Both the position numbers and the translations under genes were made by a program. From a virus: a stretch of DNA of 33,751 bases. The stretch's first letter is position 1. Each line of letters opens with the position of its first letter. The notes beneath the pieces are model-generated. The model saw nothing but the letters and a program-made list of their open reading frames with translations. It did no database searches and had not been told where the DNA came from. The DNA lies in IMG/VR virus record IMGVR_UViG_3300042261_000245, positions 1-33,751 of that record. One strand, given 5' to 3'. This document shows positions 89 to 23,497 of this stretch, one piece after another.

Positions 89-1405
89 TTAGTTGTAGCT
101 GATCCCGTTGATGGTAATTTTCACCAGTGGGTCGAGCTCCTGCATCCGGTTGACGATCACTTGGCAGTACTTTTCGTCGAGCTCCATTCCGTAGCAATTT
201 CGGCCCATCTGGTGGGCTGCTACCATCGTGGATCCGCTTCCCAGAAAGGTGTCGAGGATGGTCTGGTTTGGCTTGCTGCTGTTTCGGACGGCCCGGCCCA
301 GCAGTCGGATGGGTTTCATCGTTGGGTGTTCCCCGTTGCGGCTGGGCTTGTCTTCGTGGATGATGGTGGTGGCGATTTTCTCGCTCAACATTTCCTCGAG
401 GAGCTTGATCATTTCCTCTTTCTTCAGCTTGCGGACGTCGATTTTGTCTTCGTAGACCGTGGTGTTTGTCCGGTCGTCGATGAAGTAGTGGCTGGCGCCG
501 TCCTTCCATCCGTAAAGGCAGGGCTCGTGTTTCCATTGGTAGTCCTGCCTTCCCATCACGAGGCTGTTCTTTACCCAGATCAGGCATTGGCGGATCTTCC
601 ATCCGGTTTCCTTTGCTGCGGCCCGGAAGTTGAAGCCCTCGCTGTCGGCGTGCCAGATGTAAAATGCCGCGCCCGGCTTGACGCTGGCGTTCATCTGGGT
701 GAAGGCGTCGATCAGAAATTGTCTGAACTGCCCGTCGCCCATGTTGTCGTTCTGGATCTTCAGTCCGGTTCCTCCTTGATAGTCGACGTTGTAAGGCGGG
801 TCGGTGATGATCAAGTCGGCCTGCTTCCCGTTCATCAGTTTGGCGACGTCTTCCGCTTTGGTGCTGTCCCCGCAGAGGAGCCGGTGGGTAATCGGTCCCC
901 GGGTAAATTCGATGATGTCGCCCTGCTTGATGTCGGTCTGGACCTCGTCTTTCTCCGGTACCTCGTAGTTGTCCTCCTCGGCTTCGATCTCGCTTCCGTC
1001 GTCTATGGCAAATTCCGGGAGGTCGATTCCCCAGCCCTCCAATTCGGCAAGGTCAAAGTTGGACGTGATCGCGTCCCAGTCCCACTCTCCGAAGCTGGCG
1101 TTATCCTTCATCATGAAAGCCCGGAGCTTGTCGGTGCTGGTCCCTTCCGGGATGACCTCGCACGTGACCTCTTTGATCCCGGCTTTCTTGCAGGCTTCGA
1201 GCCGCATATTCCCGCCTATGGTGATGAATCGTCCGTCCTGTTCATAAACGAGCAGTCCCCGGTGCTCCAGCATCTCGGGGTCCTCCTTGATCGACTTGAC
1301 CAGCTTTTCAAATTTCGCGTCCCGGATGATCCGGGGGTTTTCTGGTAGGCCGTCGATCTGTCCTGTGTTCCTGTCTATCCTGTTTAGGGGGATGATCTGT
1401 TTCAT
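89..1405 (-). CDS. ParB-domain / beta-class DNA methyltransferase fusion
   Basis: A 438-residue DNA modification methylase. Residues 1-130 form a ParB/Srx-like nuclease-fold domain, with the GGNMRLEA signature near 64-71. Residues 170-430 are the methyltransferase: the catalytic DPPY is at 202-205 and the AdoMet-binding FLGSGST motif lies near the C-terminus. Catalytic motif before AdoMet motif is the beta-class order, used by N6-adenine or N4-cytosine methyltransferases. The ParB-methyltransferase fusion is a recurrent phage architecture. It probably protects phage DNA from host restriction or marks it during replication; the target sequence cannot be read here. It lies near the end of the early operon, 12 bases after a small basic protein gene. 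Confidence 0.93.
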   Translation of the reverse strand: MKQIIPLNRIDRNTGQIDGLPENPRIIRDAKFEKLVKSIKEDPEMLEHRGLLVYEQDGRFITIGGNMRLEACKKAGIKEVTCEVIPEGTSTDKLRAFMMKDNASFGEWDWDAITSNFDLAELEGWGIDLPEFAIDDGSEIEAEEDNYEVPEKDEVQTDIKQGDIIEFTRGPITHRLLCGDSTKAEDVAKLMNGKQADLIITDPPYNVDYQGGTGLKIQNDNMGDGQFRQFLIDAFTQMNASVKPGAAFYIWHADSEGFNFRAAAKETGWKIRQCLIWVKNSLVMGRQDYQWKHEPCLYGWKDGASHYFIDDRTNTTVYEDKIDVRKLKKEEMIKLLEEMLSEKIATTIIHEDKPSRNGEHPTMKPIRLLGRAVRNSSKPNQTILDTFLGSGSTMVAAHQMGRNCYGMELDEKYCQVIVNRMQELDPLVKITINGISYN

Positions 1406-7256: not shown

Positions 7257-7796
7257 TTAAAAAAGGGTGTCTTCCAAAATGGCGGGCATGATGATGGCTT
7301 CTTGGTTGTCCACGCCGACCGCGTCCACGAGGATCGGTGTGTCTATCCCGGTGAACCGAAACCGGACGGCTCCGCTGGGTGTGTAGATCGCCTTGCTCAA
7401 TTTGGTGAGCAGGGCCGGTGAAATCCCGACGAAATTCAGCGCCGTGTTCGGTCTCTGGACTGAAAAAATCGAATCGTAGTTTGGCTGGTCGCCCTCCAGC
7501 TTCTGGTATTCAAAGAAGGCGGTCCTTCCGTCGATGTCCTTGCAGGAGATCCCGTCTTCGGTCGCTTCTGAAATTTCAAAAGTCATCACCGACTTGTAGT
7601 TGTCCCGGTGGAGGCTTTTCCCGTCCAGCAGCTCCGGGTTGATGATGGTGTGGTATTCCAGCGATTGGCGGATGGCGATCTTTCCGTCGGTGGCGCAGGC
7701 GTATCCGTTCATGAAATGCACGCTGTTGAAAGTCGGGCGCAGCGGGTCTGTGCTGCAGCACTCGTTCAGCTTGGTTGTGAATGTGAATTTTTCCAT
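7257..7796 (-). other. Sliding-clamp (DnaN-like) domain, possibly separately initiated
   Basis: The last 179 codons of the long frame resemble a phage-type DNA polymerase beta-clamp-like protein: an early LNECCSTDPLRPTFNSVHF block, then NGYACATDGKIAIRQSLEY, which is the clamp 'ATDG' signature, and a C-terminal beta-rich tail. An ATG at 7796 follows an A-rich AAAGACAACAAC stretch similar to the leaders of independent genes here, so a free clamp may be made. At this length it has fewer domains than bacterial DnaN (about 370 residues) and would have to oligomerise. Position beside SSB and DnaB fits a replisome role. Confidence 0.65.
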
Positions 7797-9227
7797 TGTT
7801 GTTGTCTTTAGAATTTGGTTGATAAAACTTTCTTTTTGGGGTCCGCCTTCTTTTGATATTCCAATCATCGTTGTTCTTATCCCCCTATCATAGTGATGAA
7901 ATGCACACGGGTCAGTTTCTTTTGTAAACTGTTCAAAGTTTATTATAAAACTTTCGGAGTCTTCTCCATCAATCACTGACATCCTTCTGTTGTGCAATCT
8001 TCCTACAAGTCCGTTTCCATATCGTGTTATTCCTCGTTTCATCAGCTTTTCCTCTGTTTTCATTGCTTGTTGGTTTATACCCTTGCGGGTGGTTAATTCA
8101 TACTCCTCTATTGCTTTAAATATTTGATATACAACTTGCGGAACAATTGCATTACCCCCTGCTTTTATGGATTCGTTTCTGTGTTTTGAAACGGTAATTC
8201 CAGCCAGGTTGGTGGGAAACCCATCATTTCCATTACGAACCGGGGATTGAGTTGGGAAGTTTGACCAGTCTGGGCGAAGAAATCTGGAAGGCTGTTTGTA
8301 TTGCTCCTTCCCGACTCTGCAAGTGCTTCCGATGACCTTGCTCCCTTGAAGTCCCTGGTTGCGGGGGTTGGTAGCATTCCGTAAAAATTCATGTGGTCCA
8401 GGATTGAGTTCGGTCGTGCCTCTCCATTTACCCGGCTCATCATTGTTGTTCCTCCGGCTTGTTTCAATGCTTCCACTCTCTCCGGGTGATCTCGCTGAAC
8501 TGAGGTTGGTGTCGGGAGTAGTCCTGTACTTGCTGCCATTGCCAAACTCGCACCAAACCTGGTTCTGGTTGTTTGAGATGTCCGAACAACCCTCCCGTTC
8601 TCCAATGTTGTGCAATTCGCACTCTGTCCCCTCATTCCATCTCCGGCAGTGGGGGTTGGCAAAAGCCCAAGCCCTGCAAGTCCCGAAAGCATTGATGCCG
8701 TTCCGTCCGACCTCAGTTGTCCGTGAGTATCTCCGGCTATTGGAGTAGGCAACAAACCATGTTCTGTCCCTTCGGTGGGGAGCGTTGACGGCACAAGCTG
8801 GAAGTACATACGGTTGTACCTCGTACCCTTCAGATTCCAGGTCAGACTGCACTTGGTTGAATACCAATCCCCCATCCCAATTAACAATGCCGAAAACGTT
8901 CTCGCCCACGACCCATGTCGGCTGAACTTCCCGTATACATCTAAGCATTTCTGGCCAGAGATGGCGATCATCTTCCGTGCCTTTTCTCTTTCCGGCGAGG
9001 CTGAAGGGTTGGCACGGAAAACCTCCGGTGAGTATGTCAATTCCTCCTCTGTGAATAGTGAAGTCTGTCTTTGTAATGTCTCCATAACTGATTGCATTAG
9101 GCCAGTAATACTTTAAAACTTTTTGTCCAAATTCGTTCCATTCGCAATGAAACACATTCTCCCATCCCATCCATTCGGACGCCAAATCAAACCCTCCGAT
9201 TCCTGAAAAAAGGCTTCCGTGTCTCAT
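7257..9227 (-). CDS. C5 cytosine methyltransferase fused to a small domain and a sliding-clamp-like domain
   Basis: One uninterrupted 656-codon frame. Residues 1-376 are a C5 DNA methyltransferase: SGIGGFD (8-14), catalytic PCQPFS with C72, ENV (109-111), APHRRDR (149-155) and the late GGNAIVPQ (357-364), with a variable recognition region between. An internal Met389 begins a segment of about 89 residues (KRGITRYGNGLVGRL, RRMSVIDGED). Met478 begins a 179-residue clamp-like domain (see separate entry). Normally these would be three genes; here no stop separates them. The product may be a true fusion, or the downstream parts may be made by initiation at 8063 and 7796. The methyltransferase part looks richer in A/T than its neighbours, suggesting acquisition. 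Its ATG overlaps the upstream mini-gene stop as ATGA. Confidence 0.9.
   Translation of the reverse strand: MRHGSLFSGIGGFDLASEWMGWENVFHCEWNEFGQKVLKYYWPNAISYGDITKTDFTIHRGGIDILTGGFPCQPFSLAGKRKGTEDDRHLWPEMLRCIREVQPTWVVGENVFGIVNWDGGLVFNQVQSDLESEGYEVQPYVLPACAVNAPHRRDRTWFVAYSNSRRYSRTTEVGRNGINAFGTCRAWAFANPHCRRWNEGTECELHNIGEREGCSDISNNQNQVWCEFGNGSKYRTTPDTNLSSARSPGESGSIETSRRNNNDEPGKWRGTTELNPGPHEFLRNATNPRNQGLQGSKVIGSTCRVGKEQYKQPSRFLRPDWSNFPTQSPVRNGNDGFPTNLAGITVSKHRNESIKAGGNAIVPQVVYQIFKAIEEYELTTRKGINQQAMKTEEKLMKRGITRYGNGLVGRLHNRRMSVIDGEDSESFIINFEQFTKETDPCAFHHYDRGIRTTMIGISKEGGPQKESFINQILKTTTMEKFTFTTKLNECCSTDPLRPTFNSVHFMNGYACATDGKIAIRQSLEYHTIINPELLDGKSLHRDNYKSVMTFEISEATEDGISCKDIDGRTAFFEYQKLEGDQPNYDSIFSVQRPNTALNFVGISPALLTKLSKAIYTPSGAVRFRFTGIDTPILVDAVGVDNQEAIIMPAILEDTLF
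8165..9097 (-). CDS. Overprinted ORF inside the C5 methyltransferase (LPTP-repeat protein)
   Basis: A 310-codon frame on the same strand as the methyltransferase, shifted by one base and wholly inside it. It is not random-looking. It has SLFTEEELTYSPEVF near the start, a SWARTFSALLIGMGDWYSTK block, four LPTP motifs (LLPTPIAGD, LLPTPTAGD, LLPTPTSVQ, MLPTPATRD) and a C-terminal LNPRFVMEMMGFPPTWLELP. Proteins with LPTPxxxD and LNPxFVxxMMGFPxxW signatures are frequent in phage and Bacteroidales data, often labelled methyltransferase or hypothetical (recollection). The start could be Met1 (9097) or Met5 (9085). Its early part overlaps methyltransferase motifs, so some similarity is forced by the other frame. 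Function unknown; translation is unproven. Confidence 0.6.
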   Translation of the reverse strand: MQSVMETLQRQTSLFTEEELTYSPEVFRANPSASPEREKARKMIAISGQKCLDVYGKFSRHGSWARTFSALLIGMGDWYSTKCSLTWNLKGTRYNRMYFQLVPSTLPTEGTEHGLLPTPIAGDTHGQLRSDGTASMLSGLAGLGLLPTPTAGDGMRGQSANCTTLENGRVVRTSQTTRTRFGASLAMAASTGLLPTPTSVQRDHPERVEALKQAGGTTMMSRVNGEARPNSILDHMNFYGMLPTPATRDFKGARSSEALAESGRSNTNSLPDFFAQTGQTSQLNPRFVMEMMGFPPTWLELPFQNTETNP

Positions 9228-12203: not shown

Positions 12204-13145
12204 TCATTTGAGTAAAAACCGGCGGGATCCCGGGGTGGTGATGGTGTATCTCTGGGCGATCTCCGGGTGTGCTTCTGCGAGGGCTTTGGTGTCCAGCTTC
12301 TGGCTGTCCTTCGCTGCCTTCCAAGTCGCGAGGGTCTTCCCGGAGTAGGCGATGGCTTCGGCGTCTGCAAAGGCCATCATGATTTTGCCCTCCAGCTCGC
12401 TCTTTGTCTTTTCCAGCTCTGCCAGCTCCTGCTTGACCTCCTTCAGTCGGCTGTAGGCTACGGCGATCTCCTCCGAAACCTCGACGATCTTCCCGTCGGT
12501 GTGTTTGGCGTATTTGGTTAGGATGTCGGACGCGCTGATGGCTTCCGGTTCCTTCCCACCGAGGATGTTGTCTATCCAGAATTTCTCGACCTCCTCTGCC
12601 ATCCATCCGAAAAAGTCGGGGACCAGCGCGACGTCCTTTGTTCCGAATGTGCGGCCCATCGAAAGCCAGGCGAGTGCTCCCTGCTCCGCCTCGGTCACTC
12701 CGAGGAGGTATTGAAGCTGGCAGAACCAAGTCTTCGGTAGGTCTTCCGGGTCTATGGTTAGCTGGGTTGTCTTGATCTCGAGGATCCCTTTGTTTCGTAC
12801 TGCGCGGGTCATTCCCGGGAGCCAGAAGGTCCTGTCTGGGCTGGCCCGCAGGAATGGTTTCTCTGTGTTGACCGCGATCCAATCCCCGGCTGATGCCTTG
12901 ATGACCTCGCGTCCGGTTTCTTCGCTCCAAAGCTGGCCCACGGCGTCTTCCAGAAGGTGTCCGAGTCGCATCGGCATATTCGTCTCCTTCGGTGGGTCGA
13001 TCCCCATCTTCAGTCTCCAGAGCTGATAAGGCGTCTGGTATTCGTTCAGTCCGAGGATGCTTGCCACCTCGCTGCTTCCGATTCCTGCTTTGCGGTGCTC
13101 GATCCATTCTTCGTGGCTCTTGGGCTTGATGATTGTTGTTGCCAT
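12204..13145 (-). CDS. YqaJ / lambda-exonuclease-type viral recombinase
   Basis: A 313-residue 5'-3' exonuclease of the YqaJ family. The signature residues are present in order: GIGSSE (21-26), E66 in GHLLED, SPDR with D104, LEIKT with E123 and K125, and Q143 in CQLQYLLG. These form the PD-(D/E)XK active site that resects double-stranded ends. A C-terminal coiled-coil region (about 225-265) follows. The partner annealing protein is encoded upstream (13731-14579). The ATG at 13145 is preferred; an open frame further upstream is a shadow of the previous gene. Confidence 0.93.
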   Translation of the reverse strand: MATTIIKPKSHEEWIEHRKAGIGSSEVASILGLNEYQTPYQLWRLKMGIDPPKETNMPMRLGHLLEDAVGQLWSEETGREVIKASAGDWIAVNTEKPFLRASPDRTFWLPGMTRAVRNKGILEIKTTQLTIDPEDLPKTWFCQLQYLLGVTEAEQGALAWLSMGRTFGTKDVALVPDFFGWMAEEVEKFWIDNILGGKEPEAISASDILTKYAKHTDGKIVEVSEEIAVAYSRLKEVKQELAELEKTKSELEGKIMMAFADAEAIAYSGKTLATWKAAKDSQKLDTKALAEAHPEIAQRYTITTPGSRRFLLK

Positions 13146-13159
13146 GCTGTCGTCTGGTG

Positions 13160-13675
13160 TTAAATGGTATGTTTGAGTTCCAATGTTTCCCTGCCATCCG
13201 GTTTTGCTTTTCCAGCTCTGGTGGTGGGCTTGTAGTCTGGATCTATCCTTTGGGTTTCTGTCCTCAAAATGAAGGCGGCCTCCCCGTCGTGCTCCTTTGG
13301 TGCTTTGGTTAGTTCGATGATGACCTTCGTGTCCACCGGGGTGTTGATCTTGGCGTCTTTGCAGATGGCTTCGATCCATTTCTTTTTCCCAATTTTCAGC
13401 TGCGATTCGGAGGCGTATGAAAGCTCGACTCCTTTTTCTGGTCCAAAAACGAGGAGGCTTTCCTCGAGGTAGTTGAATTGGACCAGCCGCACCTTTGTGT
13501 ACCCGGCTTGGGCCAGCTTTGTGCTTAAGTCTTGGCTTACGGAGAGCACTCTGGCTCCGTTGTTTGTGTTGGTGATTGATAGCATCAATCCTTTGATTCT
13601 GGATCCTCTGCTTCCTGTTACATTTGCCTTCTCTGCTGGCTTCTGGTATTCTTTTGTTAATTCTTGCTCGATCAT
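13160..13675 (-). CDS. Unknown protein between annealer and exonuclease
   Basis: A 171-residue protein of unknown family. Residues 25-110 look beta-rich (IKGLMLSITNTNNGARVLSVSQDL, KVRLVQFNYLEESLLVFG). The C-terminus is charged and polar. It sits between the putative annealing protein and the exonuclease, so it could be a recombination accessory or a single-strand-binding or loading factor (inference from position). No cysteine cluster or catalytic motif is seen. Confidence 0.75.
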   Translation of the reverse strand: MIEQELTKEYQKPAEKANVTGSRGSRIKGLMLSITNTNNGARVLSVSQDLSTKLAQAGYTKVRLVQFNYLEESLLVFGPEKGVELSYASESQLKIGKKKWIEAICKDAKINTPVDTKVIIELTKAPKEHDGEAAFILRTETQRIDPDYKPTTRAGKAKPDGRETLELKHTI

Positions 13676-19219: not shown

Positions 19220-22200
19220 TTACCATAAATCGTGCGATGTCCCGTAGGCGTCCTTCGCGGCAATCTTCCCGGTCGGTCCTACGTAAAGGGTCAAGGGCGC
19301 CAGCGCGTTTACCTCGGTCTGGGACAAAGCCCGGAATTTGATATAGTCGTGGCTGGCGATCTTGGCGTTCAGCGTCGGTGTGGTGACGCTTTCCCCGTCG
19401 ATCAGCGTTTCCCCTCCGATGTTGTGGACGTGGATGTGCTTGGTTGCTCCTCCCAGCAGCTGGTATAGGTCGATCCCTGTCGCCCCTATGTCCACGGTCT
19501 TCTGCGTCGGGTTGTAGTCTCCTCCGTTGGATTCGGAGAAGCAAATACTGCCGCCGCTAATGTCGACCGAGCTCGCCGAGCTGTTGCTTCTGAAGGTGGC
19601 GTTTTGGAGCAGGGCTCCTATCCCGATAAACTGCCCGTTCTCGATCCGGGCCACCTCGATGTTGTTCGCTCCGTAAAAATGGATCGTGTTCCCGTCCATC
19701 GTGATCCTGCTCCCGTCTGGTGCTGTCTGGAAATACCGGACTGCCAAATTGTCGACGTATGCCATCTGTGCAAAAAGCAGGGCTGTTGCCACGCTGTCGA
19801 ATTGGGATCCAAATCCGTTCCATTTTGAGGAGTCGGTTGGTGTTACCCAGCTGAAGCTGCCCGCGTCTGATCTGGCCACGTAATAGGCGCCTGCGTACTC
19901 GACGATGTCCACCCGGGCCATGTTCCCGTAGTACGTTTTTGCTTGGTCGTAAAGGCCCCGAAATACGGCTGACGGGCCTATCGCTCCGTTGGTCCCGTTG
20001 GCTCCGTTCAGTCCTGTCGACCGGACCGGGCTGCTCCAATCCATGAGCACTTGTGTCCCTGCTCCGTTCTTTTTGCAAACCGAAACCCAGAGATATTCGT
20101 TGGTTGCTATCGCTGGAGGGGCGATGGTCCACCCGACCGGGTCCAGCGCCATCGATGTCGGGGCGTTGGGTGGTGTGCTGGGTGTGGTGTTTTTGAAGTA
20201 CCGGCTCTCGAAATAATCGCCCGTCGCTCCGTTGGTCCCGTTTGTTCCGTTGATCCCGTTGATCCCGTCCACGGCTGAAATGCGGACCGGCGTGCTCCAA
20301 TTTGCCAGGAGGGTTGTTCCTGTCCCGTTCTTCTTTCCGACTGTCATCCAGCAGTACTCCAGCGTCCCGAGGATCGGCAGGCTGGTGCTCCATCCGCTGG
20401 GGTTTAGGCTGGTGGTGCTCAATGTCGGAGGCGTGGTCTTGCTTCCGTTCTTGGCGTATTGATATTCGTAATAATCCCCGGCGGCTCCATCCTTCCCGTT
20501 GGTCCCGTTCACTCCGTTGATGCCATCTGTTCCCTTGATGCGGATCGGTGTTCCCCATGTCCCGGAGCTGGCGCTGGCTGCCACCTTCTGGCTGATCCAT
20601 ACGGATGTCGCTGTCGGGTTGGTATGCCATCCGCCGGTTGTTCCGTCTCCTGTCGGCAGGGATGGTGTGAGCGTTGCGACGTTGTCGTTGTAGGTAATGA
20701 AAACCGAGAGGCCGTTGGATCCGTTGGTACCGGCTGCTCCGTCGTTTCCGTCTGAAATCATCAGCTGCCATCCGGTCCCGTTGTAAATGTAGACGACTCC
20801 GTTGTCGGTGTCTCGGTATACCTCGTTTAGCTGCGGGTTGGCTGGCGGTACCGAAAGGTCGCCCTTGTAAACTATGGAGAGGCCGTCCTTCCCGTCCTTT
20901 CCGTTGATCCCATCGAGCCCGTTGGTCCCATCCAGCCCGTCTGCGGTCATCTGGTACCACGCTCCGTCTTGGTAGACGTAGGTGCGCTCTGTGGTGGTGT
21001 TTTTGTACATCCATCCGTTCTGTGGGTTGGATGGGGCTGTTACAAATTCCCCTTTAAAAACCAGCGATGTCCCGTCCTTCCCATCCTTCCCGATCACGCC
21101 GTCGGCTCCGTCAGCTCCCTTTGCGGCCTTGACCTTAAAGTACCGGGTGTCTGTCGGCATCACTCCTGCGCTCGGCGGGAGCGCTGTGGTGATGTAGCTG
21201 GATCCATCAAAGGCGAATTCGTCGCCCGGGTAGTATTGGTTGATCGTGTTCCAATCCCCGCGCCAGACTCCGATCGGGGCTGTGGTTCCGCCTGCGCTCT
21301 GGACCAGCGTTCCCCGGAGGATGAGCTGCCCGCTGGCGTCCTTGTTCCACTCGAGGCTGGAGATCTCGTCGCCAATTCTGAAGCTGTTGCTTACGAAATC
21401 CATGTAATTCTGCCCGTCGGATGAGATCACCTTGTCTGTGGTGATCCGTCCCGGCAGAATCTCGGTGAATCCGTTCAGCTGGGCGATGCTCCTGTCGTTG
21501 GCGTACTCGCTGTTGATCCCTGCTACCAGAAGGTTGTATGCGGTGTCTGTCTCAAATGGCAGGGTTGTCTTGCTCAAGAAGTAATTTGCGGCTTGGACCG
21601 GCCCGTTCTCGTTGTCCTTCGGTGCGTTTATGTAGAGGTAGTACCTCTGGCCTATGGTGTCCTCTGGGTGCATCGCGTCGTATTCTGCCGCGAGGTCTCC
21701 CAGCGCTCCGCTCTCGAAATCCGGCAGGGACCACGTGTGGTATTCCTCCTCCTTGTGCTCGCTGCTTATGTTGTCGATCCCGATGGTCATGTGCTGGATC
21801 GATCCTTCGGTGGCCTTGATCTTTTGGGTTTCCGGGTCGTAGCTTAACGCTCCGCCGTTTAAAAAGTTGAATTGCAGGGATTCGTCTCCTACCAGCATCG
21901 CCATCGTGCGGACGCTGACCGGGCTGATCCCTCCGGTGAAATTGTCGAAGGCTCCCTCCAGCATCTCGATCGTTTCCTTTGCGTCTCTGAACCTTCGCCG
22001 GGTGTATTGCACCGCGTCCTTCTGGAGCCGCTCTGCCATCACCTCGTTGGTCTCAATTTTGGCGAGGCTGCTTGCGATCCCTCTCCCGGTGGTGACGTTG
22101 CTTAATTCGATCTGTGGTTTGTACGGGTTGTTGATCAGTTCCTTGATCCCTATGATGCGGATCAGCGCTGGCGTGGTCTGGAATTGTGAATCTGTAAAGG

Positions 22201-23497
22201 CCACAAACCCGCCCAGGCGGATCCTGTACTGAATGTCGGCCCAGCGCTCTTTGGCCCATATCCCGTCAAGCTCCCCGGAAAAACTGAAGCGCGGATCCTC
22301 GTTTTCGTACAGGAATTTGCAGGCCTGTTTGAAAAGGTCCCAGCTGGCTCCGCTCTGTGTTGCGTCGTCGCAAATGTAGGCGCTCGGCAGCTGTATATTG
22401 AAGACGGCGTACTCGTCTCCCGGGTGCGGCATGAATGTGTTGTTTGGCATTGTCATCCCGTCGATCTCCTGCGGGACCAGCTTAAAGTTGCGGTGCTCGT
22501 GGTCGTAGCTCGCTTCGAGCTCCCGGCCTGCCAGCATCCCTGTCTGGAAGATGATCGTCATCGCTTCTCCTGCTGTCACGGCCTTTGAAAAGTCGAGGGC
22601 TTCCGGGATGCTCGTGTCTGTGAAATCGTAGAAGTTCTTCTTCTCGTCCACGACGACCACCGCGCTTACGTTCCCTATCCTGCTGGGGTAAATATTGGAA
22701 AGGTCGAGGCTCTCCTCCTCGTGGCTGCTCAATGCCTTATCTTCCCTCTTGATGTAAAGCCCCGCCGCGTCCGTGATGTAGGTCCGTCCTTCGTAGGTGT
22801 ATTGCTGGCTTCTGGGAAGGAGCAGCTCTTTGCTCCCGTATTTCGTCGGGTCGATGTTGCGGCTCCCTCCCTGCACGTATAGGATCTCGATGGCCCGGGA
22901 GTTGTCGGCGTTGCTTCGTACCACTCCGGTTTTGAATCCGTTTCCTTTCCCGTAGCTCAAAGCCAGCGGCGTGCTTCTGTTGTATTCCACCTTCCGCAGG
23001 CTGATCGTCTTCCCGGCTACCTCCCATTCTGTCCCGAAGGCTTCCGCCATCGATTGGAGGGCTTCAAGGCAGAAGCTGTGGCTGTAGCTGATGGTCTTCT
23101 TCGGGGCGTCGATGTACTGCCCGGCGCTCCATCCGCTGTCCCGGAGGTTCATGTTGGCGATCAGCATCGCGAGGTGGTCCTGCGGCTTCCCGGTTACTGA
23201 AAACTTGAGGGTCCCGTCCATCGTGTTTCTGAATTTGTACTTGTCGAGCTGCTTCTGTGCTCCGTCCAGCACGAGGGTGTATTCGTAGCTCCACGTGTTG
23301 TTCTTTTTGAAGTTCTGCGGTTTGGTCAGCGTGTATCGCTCCCCTCCAAAGTCCGCGTAGCTCCCGACCGGTACGTCGATGTATCCCTCCATCGTGAAAT
23401 TCAGCGTGAGGCTGTTCTCTCCCATGATGGCCCGGTAGCGGTAGCTGCTGTCGTCGACGGCTATTTCGGTGGGTGTTCCGTTTATGTTCAGAATCAT
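19220..23497 (-). CDS. Large baseplate/tail-fibre protein with collagen-like repeats
   Basis: A 1425-residue structural protein. Residues 1 to about 540 form a baseplate-hub-like part (YRYRAIMGENSLTLNF; WSYEYTLVLDG; AEAFGTEWEVAGK). A helical connector lies near 485-520 (MAERLQKDAVQYTRRRFRDA). Residues about 790-1174 contain runs of collagen-like Gly-x-Asp/Asn-Gly repeats (KGADGADGVIGKDGKDG, GINGINGTNGTNG) alternating with repeated domains of about 85 residues. The C-terminal part (about 1180-1425) resembles a fibre tip. It probably attaches to the host surface or anchors the fibre. Collagen-like repeats give trimeric stiff rods in other phages. Confidence 0.88.
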   Translation of the reverse strand: MILNINGTPTEIAVDDSSYRYRAIMGENSLTLNFTMEGYIDVPVGSYADFGGERYTLTKPQNFKKNNTWSYEYTLVLDGAQKQLDKYKFRNTMDGTLKFSVTGKPQDHLAMLIANMNLRDSGWSAGQYIDAPKKTISYSHSFCLEALQSMAEAFGTEWEVAGKTISLRKVEYNRSTPLALSYGKGNGFKTGVVRSNADNSRAIEILYVQGGSRNIDPTKYGSKELLLPRSQQYTYEGRTYITDAAGLYIKREDKALSSHEEESLDLSNIYPSRIGNVSAVVVVDEKKNFYDFTDTSIPEALDFSKAVTAGEAMTIIFQTGMLAGRELEASYDHEHRNFKLVPQEIDGMTMPNNTFMPHPGDEYAVFNIQLPSAYICDDATQSGASWDLFKQACKFLYENEDPRFSFSGELDGIWAKERWADIQYRIRLGGFVAFTDSQFQTTPALIRIIGIKELINNPYKPQIELSNVTTGRGIASSLAKIETNEVMAERLQKDAVQYTRRRFRDAKETIEMLEGAFDNFTGGISPVSVRTMAMLVGDESLQFNFLNGGALSYDPETQKIKATEGSIQHMTIGIDNISSEHKEEEYHTWSLPDFESGALGDLAAEYDAMHPEDTIGQRYYLYINAPKDNENGPVQAANYFLSKTTLPFETDTAYNLLVAGINSEYANDRSIAQLNGFTEILPGRITTDKVISSDGQNYMDFVSNSFRIGDEISSLEWNKDASGQLILRGTLVQSAGGTTAPIGVWRGDWNTINQYYPGDEFAFDGSSYITTALPPSAGVMPTDTRYFKVKAAKGADGADGVIGKDGKDGTSLVFKGEFVTAPSNPQNGWMYKNTTTERTYVYQDGAWYQMTADGLDGTNGLDGINGKDGKDGLSIVYKGDLSVPPANPQLNEVYRDTDNGVVYIYNGTGWQLMISDGNDGAAGTNGSNGLSVFITYNDNVATLTPSLPTGDGTTGGWHTNPTATSVWISQKVAASASSGTWGTPIRIKGTDGINGVNGTNGKDGAAGDYYEYQYAKNGSKTTPPTLSTTSLNPSGWSTSLPILGTLEYCWMTVGKKNGTGTTLLANWSTPVRISAVDGINGINGTNGTNGATGDYFESRYFKNTTPSTPPNAPTSMALDPVGWTIAPPAIATNEYLWVSVCKKNGAGTQVLMDWSSPVRSTGLNGANGTNGAIGPSAVFRGLYDQAKTYYGNMARVDIVEYAGAYYVARSDAGSFSWVTPTDSSKWNGFGSQFDSVATALLFAQMAYVDNLAVRYFQTAPDGSRITMDGNTIHFYGANNIEVARIENGQFIGIGALLQNATFRSNSSASSVDISGGSICFSESNGGDYNPTQKTVDIGATGIDLYQLLGGATKHIHVHNIGGETLIDGESVTTPTLNAKIASHDYIKFRALSQTEVNALAPLTLYVGPTGKIAAKDAYGTSHDLW
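19975..20520. repeat. Tandem repeated coding modules (about 255 bp)
   Basis: Two modules, seen in the protein as GDYFESRYFKN...PVGW...EYLWVSVCKKNGAGT...WSSPVR and GDYYEYQYAKN...PSGW...EYCWMTVGKKNGTGT...WSTPVR, are about 255 bases apart. They look like products of duplication within the fibre gene. Each is bounded by GxNGxNGTNG collagen-like linkers. Confidence 0.6.

Follow-up and report, generated by a model that had tools for sequence, protein, structure and literature searches.

Overlapping Reading Frames at the Methyltransferase Locus

The window, by which we mean the whole 33.75-kb viral record that was analyzed, encodes an integrase, a CI-like repressor, a RecE-like exonuclease, a DnaB-like helicase, an SSB, an endolysin, and tail genes, and is therefore assigned to a temperate phage. 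The cellular genomes that contain close relatives belong to Bacteroidota in every case. On one strand of the window, a 656-residue C5 methyltransferase ORF, here termed α, encloses the whole of a second ORF of 310 residues, termed β, that is read from the same strand in frame +1 and begins with an ATG (Table 1). The long second frame described in the first-pass annotation is thus real, and the four LPTP motifs, the SLFTEEELT start, and the LNPRFV..MMGFPPTW end listed for it are all found in β. The number of LPTP-like motifs ranges from 0 to 6 from phage to phage.

The α ORF continues in frame for 261 residues beyond its methyltransferase domain, and this extension has weak matches to PHROG 3007 (RusA-like resolvase) and PHROG 947 (processivity factor). 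In L009, the closest relative, α ends normally at 399 residues, and the extension is therefore attributed to a fusion or a lost stop codon. A second methyltransferase gene with an N terminus similar to ParB-like nucleases is located elsewhere in the window.

Table 1. Positions of the α and β features and of other ORFs in the window
Feature	Positions	Strand	Remarks
α ORF, C5 methyltransferase	7257..9227	(-)	656 aa
α methyltransferase part, aa 1-395	8043..9227	(-)	PF00145 1.6e-45; PHROG 363 2.8e-70
α motif I	about 9212-9192	(-)	
α motif IV, GGFPCQ	9023-9006	(-)	
α motif VI, ENV	8903-8895	(-)	
α motif VIII, APHRRDRTWFVA	8783-8748	(-)	
α aa 170-331, place of the TRD in ordinary C5 methyltransferases	8235..8720	(-)	predicted unfolded
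α motif X, GNAIVPQV	8133..8156	(-)	downstream of the β stop
In-frame extension of the α ORF	7257-8042	(-)	261 aa
β, candidate subunit	8165..9097	(-)	first ATG 9097, second in-frame ATG 9085; PHROG 1008 4.2e-31
β LPTP repeat region	8363..8752	(-)	LPTP at aa 116-119, 146-149, 194-197, 242-245 (nt 8752-8741, 8662-8651, 8518-8507, 8374-8363)
β motif IX, LNPRFVMEMMGFPPTW, aa 283-298	8204..8251	(-)	hhalign best match to ordinary C5 methyltransferases
Second methyltransferase gene	89-1405	(-)	PHROG 498 2.9e-125
Shadow ORF, 384 aa	12043-13197	(-)	overlaps RecE-like gene 12204-13379; no family match
ORF, 485 aa	19557-21014	(-)	within 1425-aa tail-fibre-like gene 19220-23497; no family match

Maintenance of the β Frame in Relatives

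As the coding strand contains little T and harbors additional long shadow ORFs, the length of the β ORF alone is weak evidence for a gene. One such ORF overlaps the RecE-like gene, and the 485-residue ORF within the tail-fibre-like gene is probably another shadow frame on this T-poor strand. The same two features of the window, its base composition and its further shadow ORFs, are what favors reading β as an untranslated shadow, opened by the codon choice of the methyltransferase, by base composition, or by constraint at the nucleotide level. Four controls reject this reading. When the codons of the window methyltransferase were shuffled synonymously, with protein and codon set fixed, the +1 frame contained a mean of 7.65 stops as compared to 0 observed, and none of 500 shuffles left it free of stops. 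Among 80 relatives gathered by their methyltransferase motifs or frame alone, 78 have no stop in the +1 frame over a mean of 235 codons, and the +2 frame of the same 80 contains 17.5 stops on average. In 28 ordinary C5 methyltransferases, the +1 frame has a mean of 13.6 stops and a minimum of 4. Lastly, the shadow frame of the RecE-like gene is broken by 9–12 stops in four longer matches of 64–65% identity and by 7 in a short one, and β is open in relatives far more diverged than these. The first-pass annotation held that β is not a bland shadow and proposed a check for stops in close relatives; the near absence of stops in the 80 methyltransferase-selected relatives, set against ordinary C5 methyltransferases, bears this out. 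With the conservation of β also exceeding what α imposes (see below), we regard an untranslated shadow as exceedingly unlikely.

Across 93 methyltransferase loci, the region that matches β is free of stops in 84; of the remaining nine, eight contain a single stop, located near the beginning of the match, and the ninth contains three. The β ATG is placed at α codon 38–52 in 59 of 70 loci, as compared to 23 expected from synonymous shuffles. A few loci depart from this pattern. In L089 and L090, two Bacteroides finegoldii plasmids (NZ_OY725930.1 and NZ_OY725938.1), α is interrupted near its start and β is open over its full length, an arrangement also seen in a few contigs; the RefSeq annotation of these two loci consists of fragments only. 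In the Bacteroidota genome L193, several stops in the β frame accompany an α start that looks frameshifted, consistent with joint decay. Locus L223 was excluded on account of an apparent indel that swaps the frames.

Selection on Both Frames

For 69 nonredundant homologues aligned by methyltransferase protein, the similarity of β was compared to that obtained from synonymous shuffles of each homologue, and in the reverse comparison the similarity of α was evaluated with the β codons shuffled. The median z values for β are 6.4 in the catalytic part, 3.8 in the variable part, and 5.2 in the last part, which contains motif IX, and those for α are 11.4, 2.2, and 3.3, respectively; the homologues share ancestry, so that these values are not independent tests. 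Mean identities of α and β are 0.73 and 0.52 in the catalytic part, 0.14 and 0.22 in the variable part, and 0.56 and 0.77 in the last part. Since the z values of both proteins lie beyond the constraint imposed by the other frame, both frames are under selection, which acts on α chiefly in the catalytic half and on β chiefly in the remainder. The suggestion that part of the β N terminus is simply forced by methyltransferase motifs does not hold, the median z of 6.4 being in excess of that constraint, and conservation of each frame beyond the demands of the other is in agreement with the proposal that β co-evolves with the methyltransferase.

Complementary Motif Content of α and β

Motifs I–VIII of α align to those of ordinary C5 methyltransferases (hhalign, E 3e-40). 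A second, weak match is located at motif X, nothing aligns between VIII and X, and a search of α against ordinary C5 methyltransferases by hhalign found neither motif IX nor a target recognition domain (TRD). The AF2 model of α mirrors this distribution: residues 1–168 and 360–395 are folded well, whereas residues 170–331 have pLDDT values of about 30–42 nearly throughout, near 33 for the stretch as a whole, and hardly any secondary structure. The same stretch has a mean identity to homologues of 14%. The model matches M.HhaI over 167 columns (E 7e-15). Residues G358, N359, A360, and P363 of motif X are invariant (A4), and the motif forms a folded helix in the model.

β is a member of PHROG 1008 (E 4.2e-31), a family named "DNA methyltransferase"; the name mentions neither a separate subunit nor an overlapping frame. 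When the β family is compared to ordinary C5 methyltransferases by hhalign, the best match falls exactly on motif IX (SQLNP.FVMEMMGFP..W against RrlTpREcaRLqgFPd.f), with a score of 26.8 that is reached by none of 150 column shuffles. For a broad set of 122 β C termini, the score is 26.4 and the null 9.7 ± 1.8 with a maximum of 17, so that none of 200 shuffles reaches the observed value. The direct match is modest, with hhalign P values of 0.01 for the window family and 0.0019 for the broad set. Pfam PF00145 gives no match at E ≤ 1 for the window β or for any of 51 β proteins, and comparison of β with Pfam, NCBIfam, PADLOC, and PDB sequences gave no matches. The AF2 model of β is poor (pTM 0.29). 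Its best-folded stretch, residues 160–190 with pLDDT 81–88, lies within the LPTP repeat region, which corresponds to the unfolded stretch of α, and a Foldseek search with this low-confidence model matched no solved structure, with nothing below E 1. A role of β in target recognition is therefore proposed here as a candidate function. In the Bacteroidota genome L191, a divergent methyltransferase with the sequence HFFAGIGGW has an overlapping PHROG 1008 frame that ends in LNPGLSRWLQGYPLTW, which is closer to ordinary motif IX.

α and β correspond, in the same order, to parts of an ordinary C5 methyltransferase and would be joined by a +1 shift past motif VIII; a programmed frameshift from α to β could thus yield one polypeptide with motifs I–VIII, a TRD, and motif IX in place of two independently started subunits. 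Such a fusion would lose motif X. Moreover, the β start ATG is conserved, and the β frame is conserved over motifs II–VIII, where it would be untranslated in a fusion made after VIII. On these grounds a frameshifted product appears very unlikely.

Relatives with Separate or Tandem Arrangements

The homologues in Streptomyces phage Samy are annotated as two neighboring genes, gp49 with motifs I–VIII and gp50, the latter related to PHROG 1008 according to a remark by its annotators. The Samy β sequence, RRLAARFAEWLMGLPDGWVTD...LHAIGNGVVP, contains motifs IX and X in a single frame. It is detected by an ordinary C5 methyltransferase HMM at motifs IX and X (E 1.2e-4, Z=1000) and by the β-family HMMs (E 2.5e-42 for the broad set and 5.7e-12 for the window family). 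Positions 424–499 of PHROG 116 match Samy β (E 2e-13), and positions 208–377 of the same family match the window α. Despite the separate annotated genes, the Samy β frame is open for 300 nt into α. In the metagenomic phages L255 and L258, one β ORF comprises a motif IX peptide followed by an α-type tail with motif X; both peptides therefore persist side by side when they are not encoded on the same bases. Genomes that encode β without any overlap, which the first-pass annotation had advised seeking, were not found among the relatives; Samy and L255/L258 come nearest.

The homology of the β C terminus to motif IX of ordinary C5 methyltransferases, together with the separately annotated homologue in Samy, speaks against β as a de novo overprinted gene, born within the methyltransferase as had been suggested. 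β is therefore taken to be a relocated half of the enzyme, at least in its C terminus.

Model for a Two-Subunit Methyltransferase

We consider it highly probable that α and β are the two subunits of one phage C5 methyltransferase, with β also supplying target recognition. In this model, both frames would be translated. α would contribute the AdoMet-binding and catalytic motifs I–VIII, followed by a long unfolded linker and motif X, and β, which would be read in frame +1 from an ATG of its own some 43 codons after the α start, would contribute motif IX at its C terminus. The LPTP repeat region lies where a TRD is expected and most likely recognizes the target sequence in DNA; the conserved N-terminal part of β, which overlaps the catalytic motifs, probably serves to dock it on α. 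By analogy with M.EcoHK31I, α and β may assemble into the working enzyme, which would methylate phage DNA, most likely as a defense against host restriction. The overlap can be tolerated since strong constraint on one frame falls mainly in regions where the other is freer to vary: the catalytic half for α, and the half with the TRD and motif IX for β.

The first-pass annotation had offered two roles for β, a methyltransferase partner or an anti-restriction factor. The former is the most likely, with motif IX present in β and missing from α, and nothing in the analysis points to an anti-restriction factor distinct from the methyltransferase. A related reading, that β is a real protein but a regulator or anti-restriction factor that overlaps α for genome economy only, would fit a pair whose joint activity is a prediction, a β model with no structural match, and the conservation of the β N terminus. 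It does not account for the motif IX match in the very region that α lacks, for the separate Samy gene that holds motifs IX and X in one frame, or for the methyltransferase that accompanies β in the loci examined, and we judge it improbable.

Distribution and Implications

The DNA pattern of β motif IX matched at least 120 stretches of phage DNA. Among the 80 loci listed, β overlaps an α that bears motif X in nearly all of those with enough flanking sequence, and the contigs of these listed loci range in GC content from 36 to 71%. The overlapping pair was read in the DNA of Paenibacillus, Lactobacillus, Mycobacterium, Klebsiella, Synechococcus, and Acinetobacter phages, and thus in viruses whose hosts are unrelated bacteria; Lactobacillus phage Lc-Nu and Paenibacillus phage Tadhana are examples with both frames. 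Annotators have noticed the overlap case by case only, as in the "g62 internal gene" of phage Lily, and papers on overlapping phage C5 methyltransferases were not found in the open literature searched, although this does not exclude their existence. Gene callers usually retain one frame, and half of the enzyme is therefore absent from most annotations.

For these phage methyltransferases, β is pointed to as the part that probably sets specificity, and cloning of α alone may yield an inactive enzyme. The overlap makes the division of labor between the frames directly testable, and the hundreds of natural examples, at 36–71% GC, show one stretch of DNA evolving under two protein constraints. Somewhat better than an even chance is given to the wider proposition that phage C5 methyltransferases include a very common class of obligate heteromers, in which the entire half that reads the sequence, an LPTP-repeat TRD together with motif IX, overlaps the catalytic half and specificity changes through the β repeats; in length, age, and spread, the pair would then rank among the foremost double-coding pairs of bacterial viruses, and would be largely misannotated.

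Comparison with Known C5 Methyltransferases

α shares its catalytic domain with single-chain C5 methyltransferases such as M.HhaI. The +1 frame of ordinary single-chain enzymes contains many stops, whereas in the window pair motif IX and, probably, the TRD reside in a second protein. Two-polypeptide C5 methyltransferases include M.EcoHK31I, which recognizes YGGCCR, and M.EaeI. The gene for the small subunit of M.EcoHK31I is reportedly located inside that for the large subunit in another frame, with both proteins needed for activity (Lee et al., 1995). The placement of β within α in frame +1 agrees with this. The small subunit of M.EcoHK31I has about 176 residues; β, at 310 residues, is longer and carries the LPTP repeat array.

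M.AquI offers a second comparison. Similar to β, its small subunit contains the distal variable region and motif IX, but it also contains motif X, which in the window pair sits in the α frame, and an M.AquI-type split was rejected for the window pair on this basis. The M.AquI layout is seen in Samy, Sebastisaurus, L255, and L258, and motifs IX and X are both found in the small subunit in the relatives L429, L426, L255, and L258.

In M.EcoHK31I, the large subunit contains motifs I–VIII and X and the small subunit only motif IX (PMC3404938). The window pair has this same layout, with motifs I–VIII and X in α and only IX in β, and is therefore grouped with M.EcoHK31I by architecture. The main differences are that the window pair is phage-borne, that no restriction enzyme is recognized in the annotated part of the window, and that the TRD of M.EcoHK31I is predicted in the large subunit, whereas the window α frame has no folded TRD. 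The overlap is unusual and under-annotated, yet it has a biochemical precedent, and its spread among phages is far wider than this precedent would lead one to expect.
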